This document shows, piece by piece, positions 3,960 to 61,725 of a stretch of DNA of 64,000 bases. Location: positions 41,102,797 through 41,166,796 of the forward strand of contig JASXTE010000004.1 in the NCBI GenBank assembly GCA_030280995.1, in the 5' to 3' direction. A model generated the notes under the pieces. It worked only from the letters and a program-made list of their open reading frames with translations. It did not search any database and was not told the origin of the DNA. The position numbers and the translations under genes are program-made. Position 1 is the first letter of the stretch. Each line of letters opens with the position of its first letter. Source of the DNA: Hemileia vastatrix (Eukaryota > Basidiomycota > Pucciniomycetes > Pucciniales > Zaghouaniaceae).

Positions 3960-5280
3960 AGCTTGTTGAACAGAAATTTATTTCTGTTTAAATTTTTTAA
4001 GAAGGGTGGATAAATTTGAAATTTCTTTTTCAGGTATCCATTTATCAAATTCATTTGATTTCCCTTTAAATCTTAGTAAATACTCAGTTTATTTTTCTTT
4101 AATAAGGATTCTTTTCTTGAGTATTTTTTATATCTCTGATTTTTCCACAATTTCTTCATGTTGCTTTTTAGGCCTTCCCCTTCTTTTGGAAATAAGTCAG
4201 GATCATTTGCATAGTAAGGTTTTAATAATGAGATAGGGAAAACTGGATGTTTCCTATCATATGGAGCATATAATATGACTTCCACTGCATTATTACCAAC
4301 CATTTTACTTACTACAAAAGGTCCTACAAAGAGATCCTTTTATTTAACATTACCTTGTAAGTTAAAATGTAGTGTTGATATAAGGACTTCATCTCCCTTT
4401 TTGAATTCAAATTCTTTATGAGATTTGTCCCACCATTTCTTTTCATATTCAAATGCTTTTTGGATGCATTCTTCTGCATGCTTCCTACACATTTGTTGCA
4501 TATGAATAAAGTATTTAGTACCAGGGTGTATATCTAACCTTGGTAATTAATTTAAATGATTTACTGGGGTATTTGGTACGTATCCAAGCCAGAGTTTAAA
4601 TGGTTTCTTCTCTGTTACAGAATGAGTTGTGCTGTCATAAGCAAATTCAAGGCCAGCAATTAATGTTACCCAGTCATATGTGAATTTCATATTGTCTTTG
4701 TATTCTAATCCAAAGGTACAATATCTTCTGATCATGTCTTCTAGAGTTTGTATCATTCTCTCAGCCAGCCCATCAGTTTGTGGATGGTGTGCTGTGGACA
4801 ATTTCAATTGAAAACCTGATACTTCCATCAAAGATGTCCAGAACTCTGAAGTAAATTTAGGGTCTCTGTCAGAGATTATGGCTTTGGGGAACCCAGAAGT
4901 ATTCATAATCTGAGTCCACCATAGTAATTCCAAGTCTTTTTCAGATACCTCTTTATGGGTAGGGATAAATTTACACATTTTTGTTAATCTATCCAAAATT
5001 ACCCAGCAAAAATTGAAACGTTCTTTTCCTGCTAATGGCAAGCCTGTTACAAAATCCATGTTTATAATTTCCCATGGAGCTTTTGGTTGCTCTATTTTTT
5101 GTAACAACCCAGCTCTCTTCCCAGTTAATCTTTTAGATTTCTGACAAGATTCACATGTTTCAATGTATTTTTGTACATCTTCTTTCATGTTTATCCACCA
5201 GGCTGTATTTTTAACTCTGGTTAATGTTTTGTCAAAGTCAAAATGACCAGCTAAGATGTCATCATGAAAAGTACTCAACA
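3960..5280 (-). pseudogene. A1 integrase and chromodomain-like tail, broken
   Basis: Distal pol of A1, continuing from 10772 after removal of H1. From 5280 down to 4547 the open frame covers the integrase: part of the HHCC zinc region (CESCQKSKRLTGKRAG), the catalytic core with MDFVTGLP (first D), ISDRDPKFTSEFW (second D) and TDGLAERMIQ (E). A stop near 4546 is followed by the GPF/Y-type segment (GPFVV, then MVGNNAVEV at 4303 down). The tail, with stops, resembles a chromodomain (EYLLRFKGKSN, FDKWIPEKEIS). Such tails in chromoviruses are known to direct integration to particular chromatin; that role here is inference. Element B has the same order. Confidence 0.88.
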
Positions 5281-5283
5281 TTA

Positions 5284-5314
5284 GGGGGTATCAATGTTCA
5301 GGGATCCGCAATTA
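5284..5314 (+). repeat. H1 left terminal inverted repeat
   Basis: About 31 bp starting GGGGGTATCAATGTT and ending GATCCGCAATTA; pairs with the reverse complement of 10738-10768 with a short mismatch block in the middle. Relatives begin GGGGGTGTCAGTTCTGG (H2, H3). Confidence 0.9.
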
Positions 5315-5364
5315 GGGATCAGGAATTTTTTTTCCCGGGATCAGACATTATTAATTGCCGAAGA

Positions 5365-5400
5365 TTCTTATCCACTAGCCCCAGGGCTAGTGGATAAGAA
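5365..5400. repeat. Perfect 17-bp palindrome inside the H1 left end
   Basis: Arms TTCTTATCCACTAGCCC and GGGCTAGTGGATAAGAA separated by CA, without mismatch. It lies about 80 bp from the terminus, where subterminal protein-binding sites or hairpins would be expected. I see no counterpart at the right end of H1. Confidence 0.85.
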
Positions 5401-5662
5401 ATCCACGATAATGCATTATCCCGCCTCTTATACCCCAATTTCCATTCCTAATTCCTGATCCCAAACTCATCTCATCCATGATGGATTTTTAAGAAAGTCA
5501 CATGACTTATAATTGCTGATGCCATCCTTAAGTATTTCCTCACTCTATGCTACTTAATTTTGGTGGCGAACACTTAAGTTTTTTTTCTATCTACACACCC
5601 CAACTGCACATTTGGCGGTGAATTCCCACTTCCCTCATCACATAACCCTTCCACCGGCAACA
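5401..5662. other. H1 5' subterminal region
   Basis: Between the palindrome and the transposase start. No coding signal; probable promoter and leader of the transposase. An upstream in-frame ATG at 5612 precedes the preferred start at 5663. Confidence 0.4.
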
Positions 5663-6295
5663 ATGAAACACCTCTCTACTAGGAAGCTACTTCACTCAAC
5701 AATGAATGCTATTACTTTTCTTTTAGTTCTTTACTATAAATCTGACTCTGATTTGGAAGATGCTTTAGCTTATATGTGTTTTCTTTCCAAAAAGCGTTAC
5801 ATCATCACCAGGGGGCCAAATCTTTATCATGATCCCCGATATGATCTGGCCTCCATTCTCAACATTCCTCATTTAAACTTCACACAACTTTTTAGAACTT
5901 CTCCCAATTCTTTCTTCAAACTTTATCAACTCATCTCCGATCATCCTATCTTCCATAACAATTCTCATAACAAACAGCGTAATCCTGCCATACAACTTGC
6001 TGTTGCTCTATGTCGCTTTGGCTCAAATGGAAATGGTGCTGCCGTAAGACGTTTGGATAATCTCTTTAACATAGGATATGGTACCGTGATATTATACACC
6101 AAGCGCTGTATGATTGCTATCCTTTCCCTCAAGTCTCAAACTCTTGCTTGGCCAACTCCAGAACAGCGACTTGAATCCTCTCAAGTAATGCAAGCTGAAG
6201 GTTTCCCTGGCTGTGTAGGTTTTGTTGATGGCACAACCATCCCTTTGAGTCAAAAGCCTGCAATTACTCTCCAACATTTCTCTTCACCCTTTTAA
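5663..6295 (+). pseudogene. H1 Harbinger transposase, catalytic half deleted
   Basis: N-terminal part of a PIF/Harbinger-type transposase (DDE_Tnp_4-like), which cuts and rejoins DNA at the terminal inverted repeats. The start at 5663 is chosen because an acidic SDSDLEDA segment about 20 residues in aligns with SDSDLEED in H2. A helix-turn-helix-like region (QLAVALCRFGSNGNGAAVRRL) and the first catalytic motif VDGTTIPLSQKP follow. Directly after SQKPA the frame jumps to ITLQHFSSPF and stop, which matches the last residues of the H2 protein (ITLHHFSMQF). About 600 bp holding the intron and the second Asp and Glu of the DDE triad are therefore gone, with the frame kept. The protein may still bind DNA but cannot catalyse. 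Confidence 0.85.
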
Positions 6296-6875
6296 TTTTT
6301 AATTTTTATGTTTTCATACTTTCCAAATGTCCTCTTTGTGTACTTTAATCACTTGGTTTTGTATTTTGGTTTGTTGCATATTCATTTTTTTTTTTGAATT
6401 TACGGTGAATATCTTTTTTTTGGATGGCTCATTGGTTTTCTTTCACCAGCTCAACATGAAATCGCATATTTTCTGAAATTGCATATTTTGTCAGTGATTT
6501 TTTTTTTCATTCATCCCTCATATCCTTTTCCTATTCTCCTCCAACATCCCTCAAACAATTCGGTTTCATTCATTTTGTCATCTCATCTCTCCAGGTAAGT
6601 CATTTTATTCTTTCTTTTTGATTTTTTGATAACTAATTATAATTTTTTTTGTTTTTTTCTGTTTATTTTATTTTTTTATCTAAATTTTTTTTGTAAGTGG
6701 TTATTTTGGAATTCAATGGTATAATTAACCTTTTTTTTCTCTCCCTCTTTACTTTATTTTTTAGCTCCATCACCCTACTCTTCATCCCTCCTTGGCATTG
6801 TCATTATCCCCCCTTTCCCTTATTTCACTTTTTTTTGGCTCCATTTCATTGAAACACATACATTGCACATTCTTT
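6296..6875 (+). promoter_or_regulatory. Intergenic region with conserved leader splice donor, H1
   Basis: Pyrimidine-rich, no coding signal. Two blocks are conserved in H2: a CAACATGAAAT-GCATATTTTC block (6452-6480; H2 41872-41895) and the splice donor CTCTCCAG/GTAAGT at 6587-6600 (H2 42009-42020). With an acceptor-like TTTTTTAG near 6763 they suggest a spliced 5' leader for the dioxygenase gene. Confidence 0.5.
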
Positions 6876-8169
6876 ATGCATTTCACTTACTCCATATTCA
6901 ATTTCCCCACAATTCCAACATCAATCTTTCTCACTCTATTTTTCCTACTTTTCAATCAAGGTAAGTTTCATCTCCTTTTTTTCATGCCTATATGATATCT
7001 CATTCCTTTTATGAAAACTTCATACTTAAATATATGTATGACTCTTATCTGGATAACAGTGAACTTATAAAACTCCTTTTGATCTCATCTTCATTACCAC
7101 TTTTCAAGTTTTTGTAAAAGTTTGAAAATCGGACTCGGAATTAGGGTTAGGTTTATTCAAATCTAATGTTCTTTTTACTGAAGATTCTCCTGAAGGCTAC
7201 CTTTCATTTCCTGCAAACAGATTTGAATTTGATTCAGTGGTTGCTGAGATATTGACCGTTAAAGTTGAGCCTTTTTTTTCCCAATTTAAATTTTTATTTC
7301 ATTTTTTTATGTAACAAATTAGGGTTAGGTTTATTTAAATCACATGTCCTTTAACTGAAGATTCTACTAAAGCATATCTTTCATTTTCCACAAACAGGTT
7401 TGAATTAGGTTCAGTGGTTGCTGAGATTTTGACCTTTGAAGTTGAGCCTTTTTTCCAAATTTCACTTGTCTTATTTCACATTTTTATATTGCATATTTAG
7501 AGAATAAGGATTCTGAAACTCTTATATGATTATTATATAGGCATATATTCGTTGGTCAAGAATATCACTAAAGCTCAAAAAGATGAAGATTTTCGCTTAT
7601 GGGACACTCTACCTTCCTTTGACTCTTTTCTTGCTTTTCAACTCAACAAGCTCTGTATTAAAGCATTTGAAAAAAATCATGAACTTGCAACCAAAGTTGG
7701 AATACCGAATTGGTGTGACTCAAAATTGGAAGATATCAGCCACGAATATCTTTTATTTTCTAATGTTATTATCACTCATTCTGGATTCCACAATAGGATT
7801 CATATCGATAGGAATGATGCCAATTTTCTTACTTTTGGAATATTCTCATATATCAATCTGATAACTGGCCACTCAATACCATCTCCAGCTAAAATCAAAG
7901 GACATGGTTTATATTTTCCAGACCACCGGTGCATCATTGATTTTGGTTTGGGAAATGGTATCATCAAAACTATTTGGAATTCTTCTAAGGATAATCATCA
8001 AACAACCAAAGCTCCTCCTGGTTTGAAATCCTGTCAAGATTTCACTCATTTCGGTTGCTCATTTCAAATCAGTAATAAGTTGATACAAAGAATCAATAAG
8101 GTAAAGAAAGAAGGTAAAGTTATTCGATTTAAAAAAACTTTATCTAGATCCAAAAAGTATGGGGATTAG
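6876..8169 (+). CDS. Tet-like (TET/JBP-type) 2OG-Fe(II) dioxygenase, two exons, in H1
   Basis: Joining 6876-6960 (donor AAG/GTAAGT) to 7541-8169 (acceptor TATATAG/GC) gives an uninterrupted frame of 237 residues with matching phase. The core is a double-stranded beta-helix dioxygenase: GFHNRIHID holds the HxD iron ligands (His116, Asp118), GHGLYFPDHRCIIDFG the next strands, IIKTIW a further strand, and NHQTT the distal iron His (His181). The closing strand HFGCSFQIS (198-206) has His where related proteins usually carry the 2OG-binding Arg, so activity is uncertain. Family members oxidise methylated bases or thymine in DNA; that substrate here is inference. The tail is basic (RFKKTLSRSKKYGD), suiting nucleic-acid binding. 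The N-terminal 28 residues of exon 1 are hydrophobic and less certain; translation could start within exon 2. H2 has a truncated homologue (42728-43057), and a decayed one lies at 28381-28660. Confidence 0.72.
7124..7456 (+). repeat. Two ~145-bp direct repeats within the dioxygenase intron
   Basis: 7124-7272 and 7314-7456 share TTAGGGTTAGGTTTATT, ACTGAAGATTCT, TTCAGTGGTTGCTGAGAT and AAGTTGAGCCTTTTTT in the same order. One related copy survives at 22590-22735 in relic H4, so the unit belongs to the transposon and was duplicated in H1. Confidence 0.8.
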
Positions 8170-8463
8170 AGTTGTCATCGAAAATTTTATATTTTTTCAT
8201 AAATTTTTAATAAATATTTTTTATATATCAATTTTCTCAAATAATGTGATGAGCCATCGACCTTGTGTTGTATAACAGGTAATCATGATAACATTTATTT
8301 GTTTCATGGGGTTCCTCTTTCCTATACCTGTAGAAAGTCCCAAACTTATGTTTCTCGACTTGGTCTGCATTTTGGCTTGAGGGATTGTCATTACTTTAAA
8401 CTAGGGAAATTGATATATATTAGATATTTATTTAATAATTTACGTAATTATATTAAATTTAGA
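8170..8463 (+). other. Conserved block downstream of the dioxygenase
   Basis: 8255-8410 is conserved in H2 (43140-43290), including GGTAATCATGATAACATT, TTTCATGGGGTTCCTCT and AAAGTCCCAAAC. One frame reads GNHDNIYLFHGVPL in H1 and GNHDNINLFHGVPL in H2, but H2 then meets a stop. It may be a 3' UTR, a lost exon or a regulatory block. Confidence 0.5.
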
Positions 8464-8890
8464 TGACTTCCACCCCTTACTTCAATAAAATGCAGGGGGG
8501 GGGGGTATTGCCAAATTTTCAAATCTGACATGTGAAATTGATGACTTAGAAAAATTTTGGTGATACCCACCCCTTGCTTCAATAAAATGCAGGGGAGAGT
8601 ATTGCCAATTTTTTTAAACAGATATAGAATTTTTTTGACTTGTAAATATTTTTGTGATACCCGTCCCTTACTTCAATAAAGTCCATGGGGGGTTGTGCCA
8701 AAATTTTTTATAAGACTTGTGAAATTCTTGACATGTAAGAATTTTTAGGATACCGGTAAAATGCAGGGGGTAGTAAAGCCAAATTTTCATATAAAACTTT
8801 CAAGATTCATGACATGAAAGAATTTTTGTGATACCCACCCCTTACTTCAAAAAAATCCAGGGGTAAGGGATTGTCAAATTTTCAAAGGAG
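8464..8890. repeat. Five-unit tandem array between convergent H1 genes
   Basis: Units of roughly 80-100 bp begin near 8464, 8562, 8655, 8748 and 8829. The core reads CACCCCTTACTTCAATAAA then ATGCAGGGG, followed by TTGCCAAATTTTC. C4/G4 ends can pair as a small hairpin, and most units hold AATAAA. H2 keeps about two units at 43345-43500; one relic unit stands at 28926-28980. Confidence 0.85.
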
Positions 8891-9020
8891 ACTTGAAAAT
8901 TTTATTTAAAAAAAGAATATTTAACATTAAAATACGATATTTCAAGAAATACAGAAAATAATTGTAAAATTTATGTACAAATAAATATGAACACATGAAG
9001 TGTGAAAGAAATAAAAGAAA

Positions 9021-10418
9021 CTAGTCAACAAAAAATTTCATTAAACGTTCTATTTCTTCAACAGATTTGTTTGCTTTAATGCATTCGATCAAGAAATCTT
9101 TCTTTTTAAAACTTTCTTGGAGATCATGCTTATACTTCATCTGTTCCATTAAGTTTTGATGCTCGAGTGTTTTTTCCTTATTTTTGGATTTTTCAATACT
9201 AAGAGTTAACTCAAACTTCTTCTCCTCCAAATCTTGGGCCCTACCATCCTTCTGTAAAGAGAGCTCAAACTTCTTCTCCTCCAAATCTTGGATCCGATCA
9301 TCCTTCCGTAAGGAGAGCTCATACTTCCTCTCTTCCAAATCTTGTACTCTGTCATCCCTCCTTAAAGAGAGCTCGTATTTCTTCTTTTCAAAGCTCAGTG
9401 TCTCTTTAGCAATTTCCACTTGTTCTAGAGTGAGAATAAAAATTAACATAAAGTAGAAGAAAAGCAGAGTAAAGTAATAAGAGGTATGATATCACTTACC
9501 AGCATCACGTTTCTCTAAAAACTGTTCCATTGAAGAAAAAGGTGTTTGTGATGAAGTATCACTTTTTCGTCTTCTTTGGGAGAGGAAATTTAGACTAGTT
9601 GAAGCCCTTCTCTTTTTGTTCAACGTAGCATTTTCCTCCTCATCATTGTCACTAGCTTCAGACTCAGTTGATTGAGGATCCTGGGTTTGTTCATCAGCCT
9701 TTTAAGAAATAAGAAAAAGATAAGTAAATAAAAAAATAGAATTGATAAGATAAAAGAAACAGACCTGAGTTAGATTGGGTTGGGTTAAATCGCCAATAGG
9801 ATCAATAGCAAAGCTATCTAGATTCGTAGAATTTAGAAGAGGGGAGGCTTGAGTGGAGGAAGAGGATGGGAAAAGATTTGCTTTGACATCATGTTCGGAG
9901 ATAGGATCTTCTCCATCCAACATGTTTACAGGATTAACATCGGCTCACTCTCCAAAAATTGCATCCATATCTTTAAAGTAAGGACATAAAGAATCAAGTT
10001 TATTGTCTATGGATTTTATACCCTTAGTTATATCAATGTCAGTAACCCCAAAACCAGTGGAAGATGAAAGAGCCTTTGCCTTCTTGTATTTTGCTCGATA
10101 ATGCTTGAAGCGTACAGACATCTGTTTAGGCAAAAGATCAATCCTTCCCTTGGTCTTATTGCGTAATTCATTTGCCATTAGAAGATAGCCATTAACTTTT
10201 GATGTGGGGGGCCGTCCTACTTTAGTGGCATACTCAGTACCAAAACAAGAATCATAGTTAGATTTGGTTTTCAGCCAGTTGATAAGAATGAGATGTTCAT
10301 CTTTTTTTAATTGAAAAGTCTTTGATTTCTTGGCTGAGCGGGGGAAAGAGGAAGTAGTGGGAATTGAAGAACAACTGGGTGATGGCTGCCTTTGAGAAGA
10401 TCTAGGATGACGAGGCAT
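9021..10418 (-). pseudogene. Myb/SANT-like DNA-binding plus coiled-coil protein of H1 (three exons, one nonsense codon)
   Basis: Second accessory protein typical of Harbinger-type elements, where a Myb/SANT-like protein binds transposon ends and helps transposase enter the nucleus (known for the superfamily; inferred here). Exons on the minus strand: 10418-9765, 9698-9500 and 9424-9021, with GT...AG junctions in phase. Start MPRHPRSSQ aligns with MPPRHSKSQ in H2. Residues about 35-155 form the Myb/SANT-like domain (LKKDEHLILINWLKTKSNY, KVGRPPTSKVNGYLLMANE, RFKHYRAKYKKA, TGFGV, LDSLCPYFKDMD). Then come a Ser-rich linker, a basic KKRR patch and a coiled coil with an 18-residue unit (YELSLRKDDRIQDLEEK) repeated about 3.5 times. 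A TGA at 9945-9947 after AIFGE corresponds to an Arg codon (CGA) in H2, so this is one transition away from intact. Confidence 0.8.
9211..9395 (-). repeat. 54-bp tandem repeat coding the H1 coiled coil
   Basis: About 3.5 copies of an 18-residue unit, YELSLRxDDRxQDLEE(R/K)K. The H2 homologue has a different 21-bp repeat at the same place. Confidence 0.85.
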
Positions 10419-10724
10419 GTTATTATAAATGAAGATGAAAAGGAGCAGAAACAAGCAGATGAGATAGCGAGATGAAAAGGAGAAGAATCAAATAGATGAA
10501 ATGGGGAGAAATTCTGAGCGGATAGAATGAACAGGATGGGATGAGAATGGAAGTGCGCAGCAAGGCAGAAGGCTGGGATATCCAGAAAGTTGTCCAAGAT
10601 GTGGTTATCAAATATTGAGGATAAAAATGTCAGATAAGAGGTGAACATTGACACGTAAAGTGTCTAATAACCCAATTATTAGCAAAAATAATTGCGGAAG
10701 ATAATTGGGGTATGCAGATTATTT
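10419..10724. other. H1 right subterminal region / promoter of the Myb-like gene
   Basis: Upstream of the Myb-like gene (minus strand). No reading frame supported. Contains AATTGCGGAAG and further AT-rich copies of the terminal GCAATTA motif. Confidence 0.4.
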
Positions 10725-10747
10725 TCCGCAATTAATTTAATTGCGGA
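10725..10747. repeat. Subterminal palindrome at H1 right end
   Basis: Perfect inverted repeat TCCGCAATTAA-T-TTAATTGCGGA, overlapping the inner edge of the right TIR. H2 has the equivalent at 45477-45505 with core TCCGCACTTAA. Likely a transposase or Myb-like protein binding site. Confidence 0.8.
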
Positions 10748-10768
10748 TCGGTCAACATTGATACCCCC
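10738..10768 (-). repeat. H1 right terminal inverted repeat
   Basis: Reverse complement reads GGGGGTATCAATGTT then GATCCGCAATTA, matching the left end; flanked by TAA. Confidence 0.9.
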
Positions 10769-10771
10769 TAA

Positions 10772-12030
10772 TATATATATCCATCTTCAATTGATAGTTT
10801 ACCTTTTTCCAATTCATTTTTTTACTTTGGAGGCAAGGTTTTAATTAATGCACTCATGGAGGCATTTGTTGGATCATTAAGAATGGTAGATAGTTTAGAC
10901 AAATCTTTATCAGATGAATAATTTTCTAATATAGTTTGCATAAACTCTTCTTCTAAATCCACTATATAAATCCCAAATATATGTATAACCTCATTTGCAG
11001 TTACATAAGCTGGGTTGTCAGCATCATTTGGCAAAGGACTTCTGGATAATAAATCCACATTAGAATGCAATGTTCCTGCTCTGTGAGTGATTGTCATTCT
11101 TCCTCTGTACTCTTGTACAGCTAGTTGCCATCTAAACATGTGCCTATAAGGTTTTTTCATGTATAGTAATTATTTTACTGCACTGCAATCTGTTATAAGT
11201 TCAAACTTCTGTTCTTCCAGATATTAATGAAGCTTCTCCAAAGCCCACACCATGGCTTAACATTCTAGCTGTGTGGAACCATACTTTAATTCAGTTTTTC
11301 TTAAGGTTCTGGATATATAACAGATAACTACTTCAGATAATTTTCCATTTATTATCTGTTTCTGCTGTAAATCAGCACCTAAACCTATGAAGCTTGCGTC
11401 AGTGTACAAGATAAAAGGTAGGGTGAAATCTGGCAGTCCCGAAATTGGAGCTGTCATTAAACATTCCTTTAATTTATTAAAGGCTTGTTTTCTTTCATTA
11501 TTCCAAATGAAAGCCTCATTTTTCCTGATTAATGTTGTTAAAGGAGCTGCAATAGATTGGTAATTTTTAATATATTGTCTATAATATCCACACATACCCA
11601 AAAAACTTTGAATTTCTTTTACATTTTTAGGTATAACAATGTTTTTAATTGCTGCCACCTTATTTTGGTCAACACAAATTTGTAATCCAGATACAACATG
11701 TCCAAGTACTTTCAAGGATTGAAATCCACATTTACATTTCTTAAATGCAATTGTCATATTAATTTCATCCATTCTTTGAAATACTCTTTTCAGGTGATTT
11801 AAATGTTCATCATATGTTTTTGAAAACACTATGATGTCATCAATATAGACCAATAGCCATCCTTCAACCATTTCATGATGAAAAACACTATCCATCAATT
11901 TTTGGAAGACTGAAGGCGCATTCTTTGGGCCATATGGCATTCTCACATACTTATATATACCCATATGTGTGGTTATTAATAAGTAATTTTGAGAATCTCT
12001 TTCCACAGGAATCTGGTGGTAACCTTTGCT
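10772..12030 (-). pseudogene. A1 RT (C-terminal half) and RNase H, broken
   Basis: Middle pol of A1. 12006-11257 is open and holds KGYHQIPVE, YKYVRMPYGPKNAPSVFQ, the catalytic VYIDDIIVFSK, the thumb (LGHVVSGLQICVDQNK, SFLGMCGYYRQYIKNY) and the start of RNase H (LYTDASFIGLG). Stops lie at 12028-12030 (TGA within CLD*SKGYHQ, a Gly codon in relatives) and just below 11257 (QLEC*). Two further stops occur before 11160-10822, which contains the RNase H end HMFRWQLAVQEYRGRMTI and the linker with LIKTLPPK. The reading continues in the integrase at 5280 once H1 is removed. Confidence 0.9.
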
Positions 12031-28380: not shown

Positions 28381-28985
28381 ATGAAAAAAAGTAAGATTTT
28401 CAATTTTATAAATTCTTTATTAATATATTCAATTTTTTTCTGTACATTATAGGATCATTTTGATTCAAATAAAAAATTTATACAGCTCTTCATCATTCTA
28501 TGGAAAAGTATCAAACAACTTATGCTCCCCCATGGTTTGGCATTGTTTGATGAATTTACTCATCTTAGCTGCTCTTTTTAAATCAATCAAGACTTACTTA
28601 ATAGGGTAATTAAGGCAAGCAAATATGGTTCTTTTACTTCTAAAAATTTAGGTATACATGCAAATTATAGGTTCTAAGAAATGTTTTTATTTTTCAATTT
28701 TAATATCAGTAATTAATGTTGAGAAGAATTTGACAATTTTACTTGCTTAAATTTTAAGACTGTTGGGCTGTGTGTTGTGGTACATGTTAGAAATTGATTT
28801 TTGCATATATTTATGTCTTTATACAAGCTAAACACATTAATTTTCATAAAATTTTAAGAAATTACCTTATAGATTTTCTTTTATTGACTTTTTTATCATT
28901 AAGTTATGGCTTGAGATTGAAATTTGTAAATATGGATCCCCTACTAGTGAAAAATACAGGGGGAGGAGTTGACATTTTTTTAAAT
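28381..28985 (+). pseudogene. H4 dioxygenase relic and downstream block
   Basis: Decayed copy of the C-terminal part of the Tet-like dioxygenase. Around 28500-28530 one frame reads YQTTYAPPW (NHQTTKAPPG in H1), and after a frameshift FDEFTHLSCSF, stop, INQDLLNRV (QDFTHFGCSFQISNKLIQRI in H1). The distal iron His is now Tyr. Downstream, GTGTGTTGTGGTACATG and ATGGCTTGAGATTG match the conserved 3' block, and 28926-28980 (CCCCTACTAGTG, ATACAGGGGGAGG) is one unit of the H1/H2 tandem array. The order matches H1, so this continues the relic at 22520-22957. Confidence 0.65.
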
Positions 28986-29168: not shown

Positions 29169-30087
29169 TTAACAAAAAACATGACTAAGTAATGAAAAAT
29201 TGTTTTGAATGAAAAATATCTTGAAAAAAAAGTATTTGAATTCTTTAAACCAGAAAAAAAATTCTCTCTTTTTTTGGTCAAAGTAATTGCTTCCACCTTG
29301 AGAAGCTTTCTGACTCAATGGAATAGTTGTACAATCAAAAAGACCAATAAATTCTGTGAGACTCTCCACTTGAATAATCTGATATTATTCACATATTTAT
29401 TCTTTTGTTGTTCAAGAAAGAATTTTAGAATGTATGGAAAGAATAGTAATATGCATTTTTTGGTATAGCTATTAATTGATCCATACCCTAAAGAGAACAC
29501 ATTTTTCAAATGTTTCAAGGCAGATCTATTACTTCTGGAGCCCAAAAAAAATATTTCAACAGCTAATATAATTGAAGGATCATGTTGTTGTTTTTAAGAA
29601 TTTTTTTGAATCATGGGGTGATCCTGTATAAGCGTAACCAATTTATGAGTATGAATTACTTGAGGCTTTCTGGGAAGATGGTAATTTTTCCTAGCCATTT
29701 TTAATAAAATAGAAAATTCTTCTTTAGAATCAAAATAAAAGACATCAAGAGCTATTAACCTGATTTCTTGGTGCAGTTCATCAAAATTTGAAAGAAAGGA
29801 AGGCATGACTCTTATATTATATAAAAGTGTAAATTTTGAATTATTCTTTGAGTTATAAAAGTTTATGCTTCAGAGCTCTGCATATGAATGGCATGATGCT
29901 CAAAAATCTGTGAAATAGGACTTAATGGTGAAGCCAGTAATTTTGGTTGAGAAAGTGTGGATTTGAGTTAAATAAGTGACTTATTTCACTTTTGAAATGT
30001 GCCAGTTTTGGCGCTAGTGTGTTTTATGAATCCGCACCTAGATAAGTGCAGATATGTAAGAGTGACTTTTCCAGAACTGACACCCCC
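29169..30087 (-). pseudogene. Harbinger transposase relic H3 with one TIR
   Basis: Minus-strand element end: right terminus 30087 reads, reverse complemented, GGGGGTGTCAGTTCTGG, identical to H2, followed by a similar leader. The transposase starts at 29806 (MPSFLSNFDELHQEI), keeps the PRKPQVIHTHK block, then has lost about 40 residues before LVTLIQDHP. The frame resumes as GSRSNRSALKHLKNVFSLGYGS. The first catalytic motif is FDCTTIPLSQK (VDG to FDC). The remaining DDE region and the other TIR are absent or unrecognisable. Confidence 0.78.
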
Positions 30088-38235: not shown

Positions 38236-40153
38236 AATTGGAGATATAAGATGAGTATGAAGTTTGAGATGATCTGAGAGTTTAAAAAGTGGGAGTGTTT
38301 TGTCTGACACAGAATTCAAGAAGGCCTAGATTAGAAAAAATCTATATCACATTGGTTTACCTGAAGTTACACTTTTTACTCAAAAAATTGAATAAATCTT
38401 GATTTAAATGGCTTAAGGTTGTTTGAAGAAAACTTAAAAATAATTATGGAGACTTATAGTTAAAATTTATGCATTGATTTGGCCGAAAACTGTAACTTTA
38501 GGTAAGAAAATCTTATGTGTGTTTTAGCTCTCCCATAACTTTTTGAGTTATATGTGAGTGTAGTGTAGCATGACAGAGAGTGCATATGAGAGTTTACCAG
38601 AATCCTACAGGGAGGGCCTAATAGAGAGTTTGTGTGTGTGATAATGAAGTGTGTTGATGGTGATGATAATGAAGTGTGTTGATAGTGATGATAATGATGT
38701 TGATGTTATTAATAATATTTTCACTCACTCATCCTTTCTCTTTTTACCATGTGTCTGTGGATATAAATCACCTGATAGTCTTTTCTCAATTGAGAAATTG
38801 GTGCATTTTGGATCTGCACCTCTATATTAAAATTTTTTCTAATATATAATTATTATTTGTCTTGTGAAACATCAATGGCTCTAAATCCTTTTATCTTTAT
38901 TTCTTCTCCTCTCAACCAAAATTATTTATGTGCTCAGCTCAAAAGAAACACCCAGATGTCTTTCACATTGATTAAAGATTTCCAATTAGATTATTCCAAA
39001 TGTTTTTGACCAATTTCCTTTTTATATGTTTCTGTATTTCTATCAATTAATCAAAAATGTATATCTTTTCCTTTTAACCAAAATTGTGTTCAGCTTGAAG
39101 CTCAAAGGAAAATCTTTATTAAAAGCATAAAAAAGACTTAAAAATTAAAAGTGTAATATAAAAAAAAGGACAAAAAGAAATAATAAAGAAAAAACAACTC
39201 AAAGGAAGAGAAAATGCAGCATATCTCTTGCTTTAGCAGGCCACAAAAAATTTCTCCTGCCATTTTTAGGGCTGAAAGTAGAAAGGCCTGTCCTAAAAAA
39301 TGCCTTAGTCTGGTTATCACAGAAAAGTTTTCAATGTAGTTTCCCATTTAGTGTAACACCATATTATTCTGTTTTCATTTTTTTACTCTTTTCATTCCTA
39401 GTTTTTAAAAATTATCTCAAAAACAATAAAAATCCTAAATTTCTTTATATGAATTTACTAATTTCTCTTCTAAACAATTTGAAAGATAAAAGACCATACA
39501 ACTGAAGAAGCATTATCATCTCATCCTTATAAACTGGTTAAATTTTAAACCTAACTATTATTCATGATTTGGCACTGATGAAGCCAGTATTTTTCAAAAC
39601 TTCCTCCTTCCTCAATAGTCAAAATTGTGGCATAATATTATTTTCTAGTGATTCATAAAGTTTTATACCTTTAATTAAAAAAACACTTCTGCATTTAAAT
39701 TTATTACTCCTTATATATTTATTCAACCCAATATAGAGAAAAATTAACTCAATTTTTTTCTCAAAGTAAATTCTCAGGACAGTTTAAATTTGGCTTCAAG
39801 TTCTCATTGGCTTAATTGTGTTTTTAGAATGTTCAATATACTTATTTTTGAAATTTTTAGTTTATGAGTATCTTCAGCCCTGTTGGTAAATCATTTTTAT
39901 GCATATTTTACTGAATAATACCTCATTTATTTCTCAATTAGACTCCAAAAAATACTTTTATCTGTATTTTTTCAATCAAATGAGAAATTCTACTGAATCA
40001 ATTAGCTGCTTCTGTAAGTCTCAAAACCTTATTCCATTTTTTTAAAATAATCAATTATCTATTGGATTCAGATGTGCTTTGTACTTACTTATCAATTTTT
40101 TCACTCCCACTTAATAGAATGTTAATCATTGCACTTCAGCAATATACACATTA
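38236..40153. other. AT-rich spacer with one minisatellite
   Basis: No gene recognised. 38639-38706 holds about 2.5 copies of a ~24-bp unit (GATAATGAAGTGTGTTGATG). Confidence 0.55.
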
Positions 40154-40200
40154 GGGGGTGTCAGTTCTGGAAAATCTGCACTTACAAATCTGCACTTAAA
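40154..40200 (+). repeat. H2 left TIR and subterminal motif repeats
   Basis: GGGGGTGTCAGTTCTGGAAAA, then AATCTGCACTTA twice and AATCGGCACTTA further in; the right end (45484-45523) carries the inverse. Confidence 0.88.
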
Positions 40201-40461
40201 TTTGACCAAATCGGCACTTATCTAAGTGTGGATTTCCAAAAGACACTAGCCCCAATACTGGTGGATTTCAAAAGTGAAAAAAGTCACTTATTTCACTCAA
40301 ATCCGCACTTTCTCAACCAAAAGTGCTAATTTCACCATCAAGTCCCATTTCACTGATTTGTCAGCATCATCCCATTCATACGCAGCACTCTGAAGCATAA
40401 CACTTCATAACTCAAAACATTGTACATCATTTACATCTTCATATCATATCATATAAGATTT

Positions 40462-41727
40462 ATGCCTTCCTCACTTTCAAATTGTGATAAATTACATAAA
40501 GCAATGACTTTCATGGCTCTTGAACTGCTCTTGGACTCTGATTGCAATTCTGATTCTGATCTAGAAGAAGATTTTGTCTTTTTATCAAAAATGGCCACGA
40601 AATGTTACCTTCTTCCCAGAAAGCCTCAAGTACTTCATACCCCCAAGTACACCATCCAAACACTTCTTAACCTATCTACACCCAGTTTTAGACAGCTGTT
40701 CAGGACTTTTCAGGAATGTTTCCTTAAATTTCTTGAGCTTATTCAGGATCATCCCATATTTCACAATAATTCTCAAAAAGAACAACGACATCCTTCAATT
40801 CAATTGGCCATCACACTATGTCGTTTGGGTTCAAATGGTAATGGAGCCACTTTGAAACATTTAGAAAATGCCTTTGATTTAGGCTATGGTTCAGTTAACA
40901 CTTATACCAAACAGTGTATCACTGCCATCAACTCCTTGGAATCTCAACATCTCACCTGGCCAACAAAAGAAGAGCCACTTGAATCATCTCATTTTTTGCA
41001 AGCAGAGGGCTTCCCAGGAAGTATTGGTTTTGTTGATGGTACTACTATTCCTTTGAGCCAGAAACCTGCTCAAGGTGGAAACAATTACTTTGACCGTAAA
41101 AAGAGGTAGATTATTCTTAACTCCTTTCATTCTCTTTGAAACTAAAACAAACAAATATATCTTCTTTATAGATATTCAATTTCTGTTCAGCTTATATGTG
41201 ACATAAACAAAAAATTTATATCATTCTTCGCTGGCTATCCTGGCTCATGTCATGACTCCTACTTCTTCCAAAGAATGCAAATTTCAAATTAACCTGAAAA
41301 ATTCTTTGATGAAGATCAGTATCATCTTGCAGATTCTGCTTATGTGGATGGAAATTATGTACTTCCTGATTTTCGGCAAGCAGCTTCAGAAGACAGTCAA
41401 AATGCCAAGTTCAACAATCATTTGGCAAAGTCAAGAGTCCGTATTGAACATTCTATTGGAATCTTGAAAGGCTGTTTTTCTAGTTTAAGGGAATTAAGAA
41501 GTCCTCTTAGAAATAAATCTGAAATGGAGGCGGTGATCAACTGGATTCTGTGTTGCACTATACTTCATAACCTACTTGCTGACCTCAAAGATCAATGGTT
41601 AGAGCTGTATGAAGATGAACAAGTTGATTCACCTCCGACTATATCCAACACTTTTATTTCTCAATCAACTAGTATAAGGGCAAAAATTCTTCCAATAACA
41701 CTCCATCATTTTTCAATGCAATTTTAA
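40462..41727 (+). pseudogene. H2 Harbinger transposase, two exons, one stop
   Basis: Nearly complete PIF/Harbinger-type transposase (DDE nuclease acting on the element ends). Start at 40462 (MPSSLSNCDKLH) is preferred over 40420 because H3 starts the same way. Exon 1 to 41105 holds the acidic SDSDLEED, PRKPQVLHTPKYT, a helix-turn-helix region (QLAITLCRLGSNGNGATLKHL) and VDGTTIPLSQKP with the first Asp. Donor AGAG/GTAGAT and acceptor TTTATAG/AT restore KKR-YSISVQ. Exon 2 holds YPGSCHDS (second Asp) and RVRIEHSIGILKGCF (Glu). One TAA at 41290-41292, after RMQISN, is the only lesion I see. About 405 residues, normal for the family. Confidence 0.87.
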
Positions 41728-42314
41728 TTTTAATTTTTCATTCTCTTCAAATGATCAATTTGCATGTGTTATTCACTGAGAATGGTAAATTTTTTTGAAT
41801 ATTTTTTTGGTTTTTGAATTTGCTGTTAAAGTCTTATTTTTTTTATCTCTCTGTGTTTTCTTTCATCAACTCAACATGAAATTGCATATTTTCAGCAAAC
41901 GCATATTTTTCAGTAACTCTCTTTTTTTTCTTCACTCATATCTGTTTTCTCCTCTCTTCCTACATTACTCAAACAATTTCACTTATATTTCTTTTTTCTC
42001 AACTCATCTCTCCAGGTAAGTCATTTTATCTTTTTTACTTAATTTTTTGCTAATTTTTTTTTTTTTGGTTTTTTAGGTTTTTTTTTTTTTTTTTTTTTTT
42101 TTTTGTAAGTGGTTTTTTTTAAATTTATAGGTAAAATTAACTTTTTTTTTCTATCTCTCTCTCTCTCCCTCTTTTCTCTCATTTATCCTATTCTTTATCC
42201 CCCCTTGGCCTGGGCTTTTTCCCACCTTTACCCTCTCCTTGGAATGGATACATCTCCTCTCCTTCAGTCTCAATACATCAATATACATTGTTAACAAAAC
42301 CCTTTTACATATGA
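41728..42314 (+). promoter_or_regulatory. Leader and intron region before the H2 dioxygenase remnant
   Basis: Conserved with H1: CAACATGAAATTGCATATTTTC and the donor CTCTCCAG/GTAAGT near 42016. Contains a poly-T run of about 27 bases (42078-42104). No coding signal. Confidence 0.5.
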
Positions 42315-42727
42315 TTAGATCAGGGTACATATGTTTTTTCTCCTATTCAAATATTTCTTGAAATTTGAAGACGTGTACCCTGATCTTTGGCCGAAGATCA
42401 GCGTACACCATGGTATTTTTGCCTGCAAACATGTGTTCAGTGATATTTGAAGAGGTGGACCTTCATCTTCGGCCAAACATCAGAGTCCACCATTGTATAT
42501 TGGCCTTGATAAAAATTTTATCAGAGATTTTGAGAAGTGTACCCTGATCTTCGCACAAAGATCAGGGTACACATGAGTGGGTTTACCACTATATTGTTTC
42601 CTTTCAACACATTGTTCTTAAAAATTGAAAAGGTGTACCTTGATCTAAAAGCAAAGATCAGCGTAAACATGTGTATTTTTGCTTCAATTCAAAATGTTTA
42701 TGAAATTTGTAGAGGTGTACCTGAATT
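42315..42727. repeat. Hairpin-forming tandem array, 82-bp period
   Basis: 36-bp inverted repeats start at 42373, 42455, 42537 and 42633, with a partial fifth at 42715; spacing 82, 82, 96 and 82. First arm GTGTACCCTGATCTTTGG pairs with CCGAAGATCAGCGTACAC with two mismatches; the third is nearly perfect. A half unit (GATCAGGGTACAT) lies at 42318. It stands where H1 has the dioxygenase part with the HxD iron ligands. The period is not a multiple of three and repeat peptides change frame, so I treat it as non-coding. Confidence 0.85.
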
Positions 42728-43057
42728 TTCACATATATTAATCCTATCACTGGACAACCTATTCTGTCACCTGCAAAAATTAAAGGACATGGATTATATT
42801 TCCCGGATCATAGATGTATAATTGATTTTGGATTAGGAAATGGAATTATCAAAACAGTTTGGAATTATTCTTACAATAATCACCAAACCACAAAGGCTCC
42901 TCCAGGTTTGGAATCTTGTCAAGACTTCACACATTTTGGTTGCTCTTTCCAGATCAGTCAAAAGTTAATCCAACAAATAAACAAGTTAAAAAAAGAAGAA
43001 AAAGGTAATAAATTTAAAAATTCCTTAGGTAGATCTAAAAAGTATGGGGATTCGTAG
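42728..43057 (+). pseudogene. H2 Tet-like dioxygenase, C-terminal remnant
   Basis: Open frame of 109 codons without its own start, FTYINPITGQPILSPAKIKG onward, to TAG at 43055-43057. It aligns residue by residue with the H1 protein: GHGLYFPDHRCIIDFGLG, IIKTVW, NHQTTKAPPG (distal iron His kept), HFGCSFQIS and a basic GRSKKYGD end. The upstream half with HxD is missing and replaced by the hairpin array. High identity with no stops suggests loss was recent or the part was spliced to something else. Confidence 0.8.
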
Positions 43058-43779
43058 AGTCACCAAATATTTATTATTCTTCCATAAATTTTTAATAAAT
43101 AAATATGATATTTCAATTTATGAAATTAAAGTAATGGGCCAACAACCATGTGTTGTATATAAGGTAATCATGATAACATTAATTTGTTTCATGGGGTTCC
43201 TCTAGCCAATACCTGTGGAAAGTCCCAAACCTAGTTTCTAGACTTGATCTGCATTTTGGCATGAGGAATTGTCATTACTTTAAAAGTAGTAAATTTGACA
43301 TATCTTATTTATATATTAATTAATTTATGTAATTATATTAAATTTTGATGACTTTCACCCTTTACTTCAATAAAATGCAGGGGAGGGTATTGCCAATTTT
43401 TTAAATCTGACATGTGAAATTGATGACTTAGAAAAATTTTGTGGTACCAACCCCTTGTTTCAATAAAATTCAAGGGGAGGTATTGCCAAATTTTCAATAG
43501 AGATATTGAATTTTATTGACTTAGAAGTATTTAGATAAGCAAACTTATTGACTTGAAAGTAAAGATAGAAAATTTTTATTATATTTTCAAATTTTTGTCA
43601 AAATAAAAGTATAAGCAAACTTATTGAGTTGAATGTAAAGATAGAAAAATTGTATGATATTTTCAAAAATTTGTCAAAAATAATGTACTATATTCAAGAC
43701 CTTTTATAAGTCAGCATATAAGAAAATATTACCAAAAAGAAATCAAACAAAATTAAATTAACTAGAAAAAAAATTTATC
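43058..43779. other. H2 conserved 3' block and tandem array
   Basis: 43140-43290 matches H1 8255-8410. 43345-43500 holds two array units (CACCCTTTACTTCAATAAA, CCAACCCCTTGTTTCAATAAA). 43530-43680 has two copies of a ~65-bp AT-rich repeat (AAGCAAACTTATTGA). Confidence 0.75.
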
Positions 43780-45153
43780 AATTGAAAAGGTCAAGTAATT
43801 TTTTAATGTCCTCATAAGATTTTCCATTTTTACACATTCCATAATGAAATCTTTTTTTTAAAACTCTCTTGTTTTTCCAATTCACAAGAAGCCATTTCTC
43901 TTTGAAATTGAAGGTCTTCTCTTTGAAATTGACGGTCTTCTCTTTGAAATTGACGGTCTTCTCTTTGAAATTGACAGTCATTTACTCTTTCCATCTGCTC
44001 TGCCTCAAATTATTTTTCTTCCAAATCTAAGGCTTGCTGATCTTTACTTAGCATATGATCAAACATCATCTTCTCAAAGTCAAGGGCATTTTTCGCAATA
44101 GTTGATTTCGCTGGGAAAATTAAATTGAAATAAATAAATAAATGAGTTATTGATTAAGATATATAGTAAACAAATCTTACTTATATCTTTTTTTTCGAAA
44201 TAATCCTCAAGGGAGCCAAATGAGCTTGTTGAAGTATTACCACGTTTTAATAGATGGTTCAAGTTCATTGAAGTTGAAGCTCGACGCTTTAGTTTGGAGC
44301 TTGAGCAAGAGGCTTCAGGAAGTTCATCTAAAACAGCTTCTAAAGTGGGATTCACATTTGCAGAATCAAGATTATTTAATGGAGATTGAGTTTGAGAAGT
44401 AGGAGACTAGAATGAAAGAGAAAATCAGAGAAGAATTGAAGAAAAAACAAAAAGTAAACATACATTTAAATTTTGGGCCTCTGAGGATTCAGATCTGCTG
44501 CAATATAATTGTTCTGCTTGACAGTCGGGATCATCTTCAGCTGAACTATGGTTAGAAGGTGGAGGGGATTGATCTCCTTCAAGTAAAGGTGTGTCGGGAG
44601 GATTATAGGAAGGTTTGGATCCAGAGGGTATATCCTTAGTAGTATCGTGTAGAAACCAAGGGTTTACATCAACTCGGGAGCCAAAAAGATTATCCATTTC
44701 CTCATAGAAAGGACACATGACATTGAGCTTTTTGGAAACAGTAGTAATTCCAATCTCCAAATAATCATTGTCAATACCAAAGCCAGTTTCATTTGCAACA
44801 TGATGAGCCTTTTTATATTTTGATTGGTAACTCTTAAATCTCTCCTTCATTTGTTTAGGATTGATATCGATTCTCCTCCTTGTTTTCTTCCTTACTTCAT
44901 TGGCCATCAATAAGTAGCCATTAAACTTTGAAAAAGGTGGACGTCCAATACAAGTGGACTTTTCACATCCAAAAAATGCTTCAAAATTTGATTTTATTTT
45001 AAGGAAGTTGATTATGATGAGATAATCATCCTTTTTAAGCTGACCTAAACCTGACTTTGATTTTTCAGGTGTAGGGCTTGCTTTACGAGGAGACTTTTGT
45101 GACGAAGCAGATTTTTGAGTTACCTTTTGAGATTTGGAATGCCTGGGAGGCAT
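43780..45153 (-). pseudogene. H2 Myb/SANT-like plus coiled-coil protein, three exons, one stop
   Basis: Exons 45153-44464, 44406-44181 and 44110 down to about 43780, with GT...AG borders and matching phases. Start MPPRHSKSQ. Myb/SANT-like domain: LKKDDYLIIINFLKIKSNF, IGRPPFSKFNGYLLMANEV, RFKSYQSKYKKAHHV, TGFGI, LNVMCPFYEEMD. The linker is Ser/Pro/acidic-rich; exon 2 holds a KLKRRAST patch. Exon 3 begins KSTIAKNALDFEKM and then has TAA at 44010-44012. The coiled coil beyond contains four QFQREDR heptads. Compared with H1, exon 1 is intact here and exon 3 is broken. Confidence 0.8.
43896..43979 (-). repeat. 21-bp tandem repeat (four units) in the Myb-like gene
   Basis: Codes the heptad QFQRED(R/L) four times in the frame of exon 3. 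Confidence 0.88.
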
Positions 45154-45476
45154 TATGAAACTGGCACATAACAAGAAAAAAAATAAAGACGTAGAAGAAA
45201 TAAGTAAAAAAGAATGTAAACATGCCTGGTCAAAATGTTGAAAATTTCAGGAAGGGGTGTGTGCCGAGGATTGCTGGGTAGGTAGCAAGGAAGTTCAGTG
45301 TATCACATGTGATAGAGATGGTATGGGAAAGAAAGGGATGATGTGGCCAACATGTGGTTTTGAAAAAAAAATCACAAAAAAAGTGCTGATTTGAGGTCAG
45401 AACTGACACCCATTTTTGAAATAAGTGACTTTTTTGCAAAATTTAAGTGCTGATTTGTAAGTTCTGATTTGGTTTG

Positions 45477-45505
45477 AAATCCGCACTTAAGTTAAGTGCG
45501 GATTT
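45477..45505. repeat. Subterminal palindrome at H2 right end
   Basis: Perfect arms AAATCCGCACTTAA and TTAAGTGCGGATTT around one G. Counterpart of H1 10725-10747. Confidence 0.88.
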
Positions 45506-45523
45506 TCCAGAACTGACACCCCC

Positions 45524-46027
45524 TATTATTTCTACATGGTTACCTTCTTCCACATCCTCCAAACTATTTTTTGATCAAAAAGATTTCATAATGTTGACCA
45601 AAGCCAAGAAGAAAATTAATTAAGTGCATGCATTTTTGTGCCATGTAATGGAGAATTTATGTACATACAGATAATTCAAAATACAATTGCTTTATATACT
45701 CTTACCACTTTCAAAAATTTACCTAAAATAATACATTTGGTAGCAGATGGAAGATGTTAAACCTTCAATGTTTTACAAATTAGATGTATATGGATTTTAA
45801 TACCCAAAATACCTTTGTAACATAAACTAGAACTTAATGAATGAGGAAACTCAAGTGATCAATATTTGATTTAACTTGTATTTAGTTAATTTTTTTCATA
45901 GGGGTGATAAATACTGCAATCAAGTAATAAATTGTGCCTGTAAAATCCATGTAGCTAACAAATATTTTCTAGAACAGCTGTGAATACTCTAAGTGACTTA
46001 TAATAATTAAAAACCAAAATATGATTC
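45524..46027. other. Spacer between H2 and element C
   Basis: AT-rich; nothing recognisable. Ends in GATTC, the element C target site (46023-46027). Confidence 0.5.
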
Positions 46028-56145: not shown

Positions 56146-57257
56146 TATCGCCGTGGTTGTCTAGAAGGTGGAAGAAGAAAGAATAAAAAGGAGAAAGGGA
56201 CACAAGAAGACAAAGAATTGAAAGAGGAAAAGAGGGAAGGACGCAAATAAGGGAAAAAAGGATCTAATGTATAAGGTGAGTAGTCTTAATATTATTGTAA
56301 TGTAAGTATTTTAATTTCAATGCGCAGAAGTCAAGTATTATAGTTTAATGTTCTTACTGCAACCTTAAGAATTTGTATACAGTATTTATTTATTTTATTT
56401 CAACTAAAATGTATTACTAGTTAAAAGAAAAAGAATCAATACATGTATAAAAATATATAAGTGTAAGTAAATTGTAAATATGTAAGTGATGCAGCTGAAG
56501 GGGGTTCCCAAGGCCCTTATATAGCCAAGGGGCCCTCTGAAGCGCCACAAGAGTAAATACAATAATTTATGAGTAAATGTAAGGGGTGAGAAATAAAAAA
56601 TGTACTAATTTGTTTAAATGCAGTAGTCAATATTTCACCAGTATTAATTCCCCCTGGATATTACACATAAGTAAGTACAAGACATATAAAAAATAACTAA
56701 TGTAATTTAAAATAAGTATTATGCAGTACTATTTTATAGTGGAATGTAATTTATTACTATTTTAATTCATACAATTAATATAAGTAATTATTTTAGATTA
56801 AAATATGAGAATGTAATTAGTTTAAATGTTTTAATAAATTTAATTACATAATTTTGAGCCACAGAAGCGCCCAAAAATCAGGAATAATAATGTATAAATT
56901 ATTATAAGGGTCTAATAATTAATTAATATTATTATAAGTCAACATTTTGCCTTATAAGTATAATATAATATTATAATTAATTAATTATTATTTTATAATT
57001 ATTTAAATACATAAAAATGCGCCCAATTTTTATAGAATAGAATATAATTTATGTTTATTTTAATAGTATATAATTAATAACATAATAAAATAAATATAAC
57101 CCTTATTTTAATTTTATTTAATAAGGTAATTTGTACTTAATTTTATTATGCAATAAAATATAAATTTATATACATAAAAAGCATAAATTTTCGCCCTCTT
57201 TCAGGTCCAATGACTTAACATAAGTTTTACTGGGCTCCTGGTACAGCCTGGCTGACA
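56146..57257 (-). repeat. B 3' LTR
   Basis: 1112 bp; plus-strand left end TATCGCCGTGGTTGTCTAG (TG decayed to TA), right end GGCTGACA. TATATAAGGGCC on the minus strand near 56512-56525. Matches 13482-14607 and 23255-24494. Confidence 0.92.
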
Positions 57258-57275
57258 CTCCCTCACTCTAAAAAA
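57258..57275 (-). promoter_or_regulatory. Candidate polypurine tract of B
   Basis: Minus strand reads TAGAGTGAGGGAG directly before TGTCAG. Confidence 0.6.
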
Positions 57276-57279
57276 AACA

Positions 57280-61600: not shown

Positions 61601-61725
61601 TCATACCACATTAAGGCTACATTGGAGAATAATGAAATTAACTTAGAAACAATTTCTTTATCTGGTAGTTTATATGACTTCTTCAAATTATCAATTCTTT
61701 GGATAAAGTGTTGCCAATCAGAGAA
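58631..61725 (-). pseudogene. B gag end, zinc knuckle, protease, RT and RNase H (1017-residue open frame)
   Basis: 61686-58633 is a single open frame. Capsid end (KLISLFSNVALMWYESVLL, QFGGSKFRLAQQRFYE), nucleocapsid CFKCNKPWQKGYVC (the His is Tyr), protease VVLDSGAGGSVVS and WRGYGSIFCPIGKYKT. RT follows with GDYRALNTYTVDDIYPLPR, GNKGYHQIPVEK, RMPFGPKNAPSVFQ and the catalytic motif VHIDDIIIFSK (HIDD in place of YIDD). RNase H has VLYTDASFVGLGAALHQK, QLECLEVVWALEKLHYYL and VTDCSAVKS, then a tail with LPLPNNDSNPAYVPEDD. The frame closes after YYRRNLLM. Upstream, a one-base deletion near 61725 separates it from the gag N-terminal frame (DQYPTFDGDSS, shift, IQRIDNLKKSYKLPDKEI). Confidence 0.93.

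Follow-up and report, generated by a model that had tools for sequence, protein, structure and literature searches.

PIF/Harbinger-type transposons with a Tet/JBP-family dioxygenase gene in the rust fungus Hemileia vastatrix

Introduction

The closest described relatives of the elements reported here are the TET+ PHISTA transposons, a lineage presented in December 2025 with members in Puccinia and Austropuccinia (Kojima, 2025; PMC12730594). Fifteen TET+ Harbinger families that make TA duplications were described there, drawn from six species of rust, one of which is Austropuccinia psidii. Compared by their published description, these elements share with ours a PIF/Harbinger-type DDE transposase, a TET/JBP dioxygenase, a third gene and TA duplication, and TET- relatives exist beside them. 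The same paper proposes that the dioxygenase removes silencing marks and counteracts C-to-T hypermutation. Two features set the Hemileia elements apart from TET+ PHISTA as described there: the third proteins of the latter are stated to have no Myb/SANT domain, whereas those of Hemileia give a consistent, sub-threshold Myb/SANT-like match, and the Hemileia elements include characterised transposase-deleted and dioxygenase-less subfamilies. Two other kinds of transposon, both as summarised in PMC12730594, are more remote. Nuwa, a PIF/Harbinger element (citing Han et al.), likewise encodes a transposase and possibly a Myb/SANT DNA-binding protein, but it has two proteins and 3-bp duplications, which none of the five Hemileia elements with both ends visible has. 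The KDZ elements (Kyakuja, Dileera and Zisupton) also carry a TET/JBP dioxygenase in basidiomycetes but make 7- or 8-bp duplications, in contrast to the TA-flanked ends and DDE_Tnp_4 transposase of the Hemileia elements.

We analysed a 64,000-nucleotide stretch of the genome of the coffee leaf rust Hemileia vastatrix (the window), in which a sequence-only reading had proposed a dioxygenase as undescribed cargo of PIF/Harbinger elements. That novelty has been overtaken, as Kojima (2025; PMC12730594) already describes the class and the same proposed function. The words "Hemileia" and "CpG" do not occur in the main text of that paper, none of the openly licensed papers listed for Hemileia, judged by titles and the opening of abstracts, is on such elements in this genus, and the parts of PMC12210899, on rust transposons, that we covered hold nothing on this class. 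The Hemileia elements are thus well supported as a known kind in a new host; the class itself is not new.

Results and discussion

The window holds two PIF/Harbinger-type transposons, H1 (5284-10768) and H2 (40154-45523), each with matching terminal inverted repeats (TIRs), a TA at each end, transposase sequence, a Tet-like dioxygenase of Pfam family PF20515 and a Myb-like gene; these and a third element are all broken. We searched the whole genome (747.6 Mb in 791 contigs) for relatives, denoted L below. Taken as a whole, the enzyme's role included, our model is probable. It places H1 and H2, as damaged copies, in two related and abundant transposon families of the TET+ PHISTA kind. A complete element, typified by L063, has TA-flanked TIRs, a DDE transposase, a dioxygenase with two or more exons and, in convergent orientation, a Myb-like/coiled-coil gene. 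The transposase and its Myb-like partner would cut and paste the element at TA, and the dioxygenase would oxidise 5-methylcytosine on element DNA and so oppose silencing by CpG methylation. We advance this functional step, read from sequence, tentatively, as quite possible but short of likely.

H1 is nested in a retrotransposon that by eye is gypsy-like, with minus-strand open reading frames (ORFs) on either side. Its left end comprises TA at 5282-5283 and the TIR GGGGGTATCAATGTT... (5282-5314, plus strand), and its right end a TIR and flanking TA (10738-10770, minus strand); the 35-nt arms (5280-5314 and 10738-10772) are 91% complementary, and a 15-nt TIR pattern occurs exactly twice in the window, once at each end of H1. 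H2 is bounded by a related but different TIR, with GGGGGTGTCAGTTCTGG and TA on the left (40152-40174, plus strand) and TIR and TA on the right (45503-45525, minus strand). All five elements with both ends visible (H1, H2, L061, L063 and L064) have TA on either side, which could belong to the ends themselves, and the flanking triplets differ in all five, giving no 3-bp target site duplication. When flanks were joined to mimic an empty site, they matched a gypsy-like copy at 71-74% identity as two separate pieces only. The third element is a decayed copy, with a TIR ending at 30087 and a transposase remnant at 29265-29800 (together 29265-30087, minus strand, by sequence similarity) and a dioxygenase remnant on the plus strand (28498-28629; 38% amino acid identity over 48 residues, E=2e-4). 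The opposite strands of these two remnants differ from the arrangement in H1 and H2 and rule out a same-order element.

H1 retains a remnant of the transposase gene (5612-6295, plus strand, by similarity to full copies) rather than the whole gene that had been supposed. Homology to full copies extends from the N-terminal part past the first catalytic D, breaks at about 6261 and resumes at the very end of the C-terminal tail; the catalytic core is deleted. With this sequence H1 cannot make a working transposase; presumably, relatives that share its TIRs mobilised it in trans. The H2 transposase (40468-41727, plus strand) consists of two exons, the second of which is interrupted by a single in-frame stop at 41290; the two pieces into which this exon is split were scanned separately and both match DDE_Tnp_4, which we take to be the Pfam family typical of Harbinger. 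This type of transposase is also present in L063 (E=4e-26) and L062 (E=4e-25), and a 454-aa open transposase frame occurs in both L063 and L064.

The dioxygenase of H1 is represented by its last exon (7540-8169, plus strand, from Pfam and alignments), which contains the catalytic part with HxD and a distal H but is not accompanied by the N-terminal exon. Pfam assigns the ORF at 7552-8169 to PF20515 (Tet-like 2OG-Fe(II) oxygenase) with E=3.8e-28, over profile positions 59-211; for the L063 dioxygenase the E-value is 2.5e-31. This match bears out the Tet/JBP-type dioxygenase proposed for H1, together with its HID (H84 and D86) and NHQTT (H149) motifs: in alignments of three and of six sequences H84, D86, H149 and also H166 are invariant, H149 and H166 being candidates for the distal His ligand. 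Structure prediction, which had been suggested alongside the profile search, gave a model, but a poor one (pLDDT 42), and no PDB sequence matched the H1 dioxygenase, so the assignment of fold and putative substrate to the Tet/JBP type rests on Pfam. Our protein database search with this sequence found two relatives, both without names.

The sequence-only reading had assembled a 237-residue protein starting at 6876. The first exon implied by it (6876-6960) is rejected, since the upstream exon of the complete relative L063 is different and is missing from H1. Because this upstream exon includes an 84-residue stretch (L063 4066-4317) without counterpart in H1, the H1 protein looks N-terminally truncated, and with that exon missing the enzyme may be inactive. 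Upstream of the dioxygenase, a stretch at 6262-6819 (plus strand) is 73% common to H2 (blastn, 6261-6819 against 41693-42232) and contains what by eye resembles an intron donor, CTCCAG/GTAAGTCATTTTAT. The place of the N-terminal exon region is taken in H1 by two tandem units of about 177 bp (7139-7454, plus strand, by repeat comparison). Within them, 7139-7174 and 7317-7352 form a repeat pair with AATTAGGGTTAGG, like two telomere units, where complete relatives carry that exon; the telomere motif of H. vastatrix is given as TTAGGG (PMC10652848).

H2 has the same gene order as H1 and, as had been noted, a related dioxygenase remnant (42725-43057, plus strand; PF20515, E=6e-7), which is 82% identical to the H1 protein over 109 residues and consists of the C-terminal part only, the HxD half being absent. 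Directly before it, at 42330-42721, lie five repeats of about 82-96 bp with hairpin-like GTGTACCCTGATCTT...AAGATCAGCGTACAC units.

The third gene runs convergently on the minus strand in both elements. In H1 it comprises a Myb/SANT-like exon (9945-10415), with an in-frame stop where L063 is open, and an exon that is coiled-coil-like by eye (9021-9449; ORFs and comparison with L063), and an array of degenerate repeats of about 81-95 bp (8455-8905, by repeat comparison) lies between the convergent genes. The H2 Myb/SANT-like exon is at 44425-45153 (minus strand), by similarity to H1. The proposed Myb/SANT gene is thus present in both elements, with a putative Myb/SANT domain: Myb_DNA-bind_4 was matched by all four proteins scanned, those of H1 (E=0.0085), H2 (E=0.0014), L062 and L063 (E 0.0013-0.0085 overall), in each case under the Pfam cut-off. 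The H2 protein has no relative in the protein database, the Myb-like protein has no match in the PDB, and its predicted structure is poor (pLDDT 40).

Complete and damaged relatives of both elements occur elsewhere in the genome. In L063, TA-flanked TIRs of the H1 type enclose the 454-aa transposase frame, two dioxygenase exons, both open, a Myb-like frame of 261 aa, and the coiled-coil exon. L061 and L062 belong to the H2 family and share the gene order, with some frames damaged in each; L061 shows both TIRs with TA, and L062 the left TIR. The H1 dioxygenase has at least 150 matches that are 94-100% identical (the best 150 of 14,973 unscored candidates), and the PF20515 search likewise gave at least 150 scored matches (the best 150 of 10,849 unscored candidates). 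At all 30 top-ranked H1 dioxygenase loci, one of which is H1, the end of a transposase remnant lies about 1.3 kb upstream of the dioxygenase, and between the two no match to the catalytic pieces of the transposase was found at any of them. Conversely, 17 of the 18 H1-type 245-aa transposase frames have an H1-type dioxygenase about 1.9 kb downstream, by eye and among the matches listed; the single one without a listed dioxygenase is at C26:15200603.

To gauge constraint on the dioxygenase, members of the H1 family (H1, L063, L064 and L019) were compared with members of the H2 family (L061, L013, L017, L021 and L026). Over 207-209 codons, the last dioxygenase exon differs between families by dN 0.11-0.19 and dS 1.3-2.1, with dN/dS 0.07-0.12. 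For the N-terminal part of the transposase dN is 0.33-0.36 with dS 2.3-3.0, near saturation, and for the Myb-like gene, whose dS is saturated, dN is about 0.45; by its lower dN the dioxygenase is therefore the most conserved of the three. These codon comparisons show strong long-term purifying selection on the dioxygenase between families. The enzyme has therefore been of use over long periods, although single copies are not kept intact.

It is rather likely that H1-type copies are young deletion derivatives amplified by relatives, in which the truncated dioxygenase is an inert passenger; this applies to the H1 type only and is compatible with our main explanation for complete elements. Among 66 sequences (L001-L064, H1 and H2, where L031 is H1's own locus), the N-terminal dioxygenase exon was found in 33 (L001-L030 and L061-L063) and not found in the other 33 (H1, H2, L031-L060 and L064). 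L064 offers a simple deletion path: it keeps the 454-aa transposase frame and lacks the N-terminal dioxygenase exon as H1 does, so that H1 has the look of an L064-like element from which part of the transposase has been deleted. The dioxygenase dN/dS among H1, L063 and L064 is high (0.38-0.76), as expected for copies decaying after insertion. Against an inert passenger, 121 of the 150 best-scoring H1 dioxygenase matches have no stop, though ranking by score favours intact copies.

How often the dioxygenase is retained was sampled from transposase-anchored matches. For the H1 family, rows 2, 12, ... 112 were taken from the list of 150, and at each of these 12 loci we inspected the sequence from 1.8 to 5.0 kb downstream of the start of the transposase match. 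Five of these 12 copies carry the dioxygenase (L068, L071, L072, L075 and L076), of which only L068 and L071 have the N-terminal exon, and seven lack it (L065, L066, L067, L069, L070, L073 and L074). All seven match L063 on either side of a replaced segment, which falls into two classes, from L063 2520 to 5463 (L065, L067, L069 and L070) and from about 2596-2620 to 5791 (L066, L073 and L074). Over its main stretches, the filler in this segment shows 88-99% identity to sequence lying just 3' of another type of dioxygenase, that of L010 (51% amino acid identity to H1), and its shorter stretches also match other loci; by this similarity the filler appears to be a trace of exchange between families. 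In the H2 family, three of four sampled loci carry the dioxygenase (L077, L079 and L080), and L078 matched no query. The earlier suggestion that loss from most TIR-bounded copies would mark a chance capture in one ancestor thus receives a divided answer: most copies lack the gene in the H1-family sample, which is small, and most carry it in the still smaller H2-family sample. Capture in a single recent ancestor is at odds with the conservation of the dioxygenase between the two families.

These losses bear on a second alternative, that the dioxygenase is passively exchanged cargo, a working enzyme that persists because rust transposons repeatedly pass it on, and not because it benefits the family. 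Frequent transfer of dioxygenases among superfamilies is described in PMC12730594, the L010-like filler suggests that this region of the element is recombination-prone, and the gene is missing from more than half of the sampled H1-family copies. However, the low dN/dS between families, a protein divergence below that of the transposase, and an identical gene order in two diverged families are harder to explain by passive transfer, and we regard it as unlikely. The high protein identity had raised the idea of a recent swap between H1 and H2, but synonymous sites are nearly as diverged in the dioxygenase (pS 0.61-0.71) as in the transposase N-terminal part (0.71-0.74), which rejects a recent swap and is compatible with an old one. 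We retain the reading of a PIF/Harbinger-superfamily element whose conserved third gene encodes a Tet/JBP-family dioxygenase, as seen in two or more diverged families of the Hemileia genome.

If the dioxygenase counteracts methylation, carriers might be expected to be spared CpG mutation. Across 30 H1-type loci, the rate of difference per site and copy is 0.083 at CpG and 0.005-0.006 at other C/G; the ratio is 14.6 (11.9-18.0), and 164 of the 174 changes are transitions. Because a change found in several copies enters the count repeatedly, the intervals here are too narrow. C>T changes reach 0.078 at CpG compared with 0.0016-0.0028 at other C, and TCG is hit hardest (0.115 versus 0.038-0.050 at ACG, CCG and GCG), in agreement with the TCG pattern cited for Pucciniomycotina in PMC12730594. 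A 1.27-kb stretch present in carriers and non-carriers gives a CpG excess of 8.0 (4.9-13.0) for six dioxygenase-bearing copies (H1, L063, L064, L072, L075 and L076) and of 12.7 (5.2-31.3) for the seven dioxygenase-less copies (p=0.44, a small sample); L068 was left out as too diverged, and L071 did not reach the stretch. No mutational protection was thus seen in carriers relative to non-carriers, in a comparison made mostly of copies with a truncated enzyme, where the N-terminal exon is shown for L063 only and the complete enzyme is hardly covered. CpG observed/expected in H1 (0.41) and H2 (0.28) exceeds that of three stretches that by eye are gypsy-like (0.01-0.17), but a fourth such stretch has 0.35, values per kb over 46-57 kb are 0.23-0.67, and the copies themselves hypermutate at CpG, so that we discard this difference as a sign of protection. 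A separate gypsy-like element (by eye) at 57200-63400 has a 1017-codon open frame and a CpG observed/expected of 0.01, far under both H1 and H2. Escape from methylation-based silencing, which the sequence-only reading had offered as one possible purpose of the gene, is weakened by the strong CpG hypermutation of carriers and by the seven of 12 H1-family copies that do without the dioxygenase.

The hypermutation of carriers is easier to fit with an enzyme whose net effect is not demethylation. JBP and CMD1 are enzymes that make a hypermodified base, and the Hemileia dioxygenase could similarly write another mark, for recognition or mobilisation of the element, instead of erasing methylation. 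PU-type enzymes are only distantly related to the TETs that have been characterised, and the account in PMC12730594 leaves other activities possible for them. Yet no glycosyltransferase or other modifying gene was recognised by eye among the L061-L064 ORFs with 90 codons or more, the Pfam scan covering seven frames of L062 and L063, and we consider such a mark distinctly improbable, preferring, at the tentative strength given above, oxidation of 5-methylcytosine against CpG-methylation silencing.

Immediately 3' of the dioxygenase, H1 carries a strongly conserved noncoding block of 185 nt (8236-8420, plus strand), with a copy in H2 (43122-43305, plus strand, by sequence identity). Its query segment 8240-8420 is 85-91% identical to eight H2-family copies, while only 25 of 54 4-fold sites of the adjacent dioxygenase exon are identical between H1 and L017. 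The similarity reaches four of the more distant dioxygenase loci (L002, L009, L012 and L024) over a core of about 60-70 nt, and the block has at least 40 exact copies in the genome (the best 40 of 1,462 candidates). It can be drawn as a stem structure, with 15 pairs in the consensus fold, none of them with a change on both sides; an Rfam search over 5-11 kb, including the block, found nothing credible (best E 0.87). That transposase-less H1-type copies keep the dioxygenase, 3' block and Myb-like gene, whereas many transposase-bearing relatives have shed dioxygenase and block, would fit a single module helping element copies in trans, with the block as a functional RNA or binding site directing the dioxygenase and the two copy classes persisting as partners, an idea that we think very improbable.

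The preferred model, broken members of two TET+ PHISTA-like families with a dioxygenase long under constraint, extends the TET+ PHISTA class to Hemileia (Zaghouaniaceae), where it is present in high copy. It adds to that class complete, truncated and dioxygenase-less subfamilies, a long-term constraint on the enzyme with no visible mutational protection, and a conserved noncoding block. Since complete, dioxygenase-truncated and dioxygenase-less copies of one family coexist in this genome, whether a transposon-borne TET protects its carriers is here directly testable.
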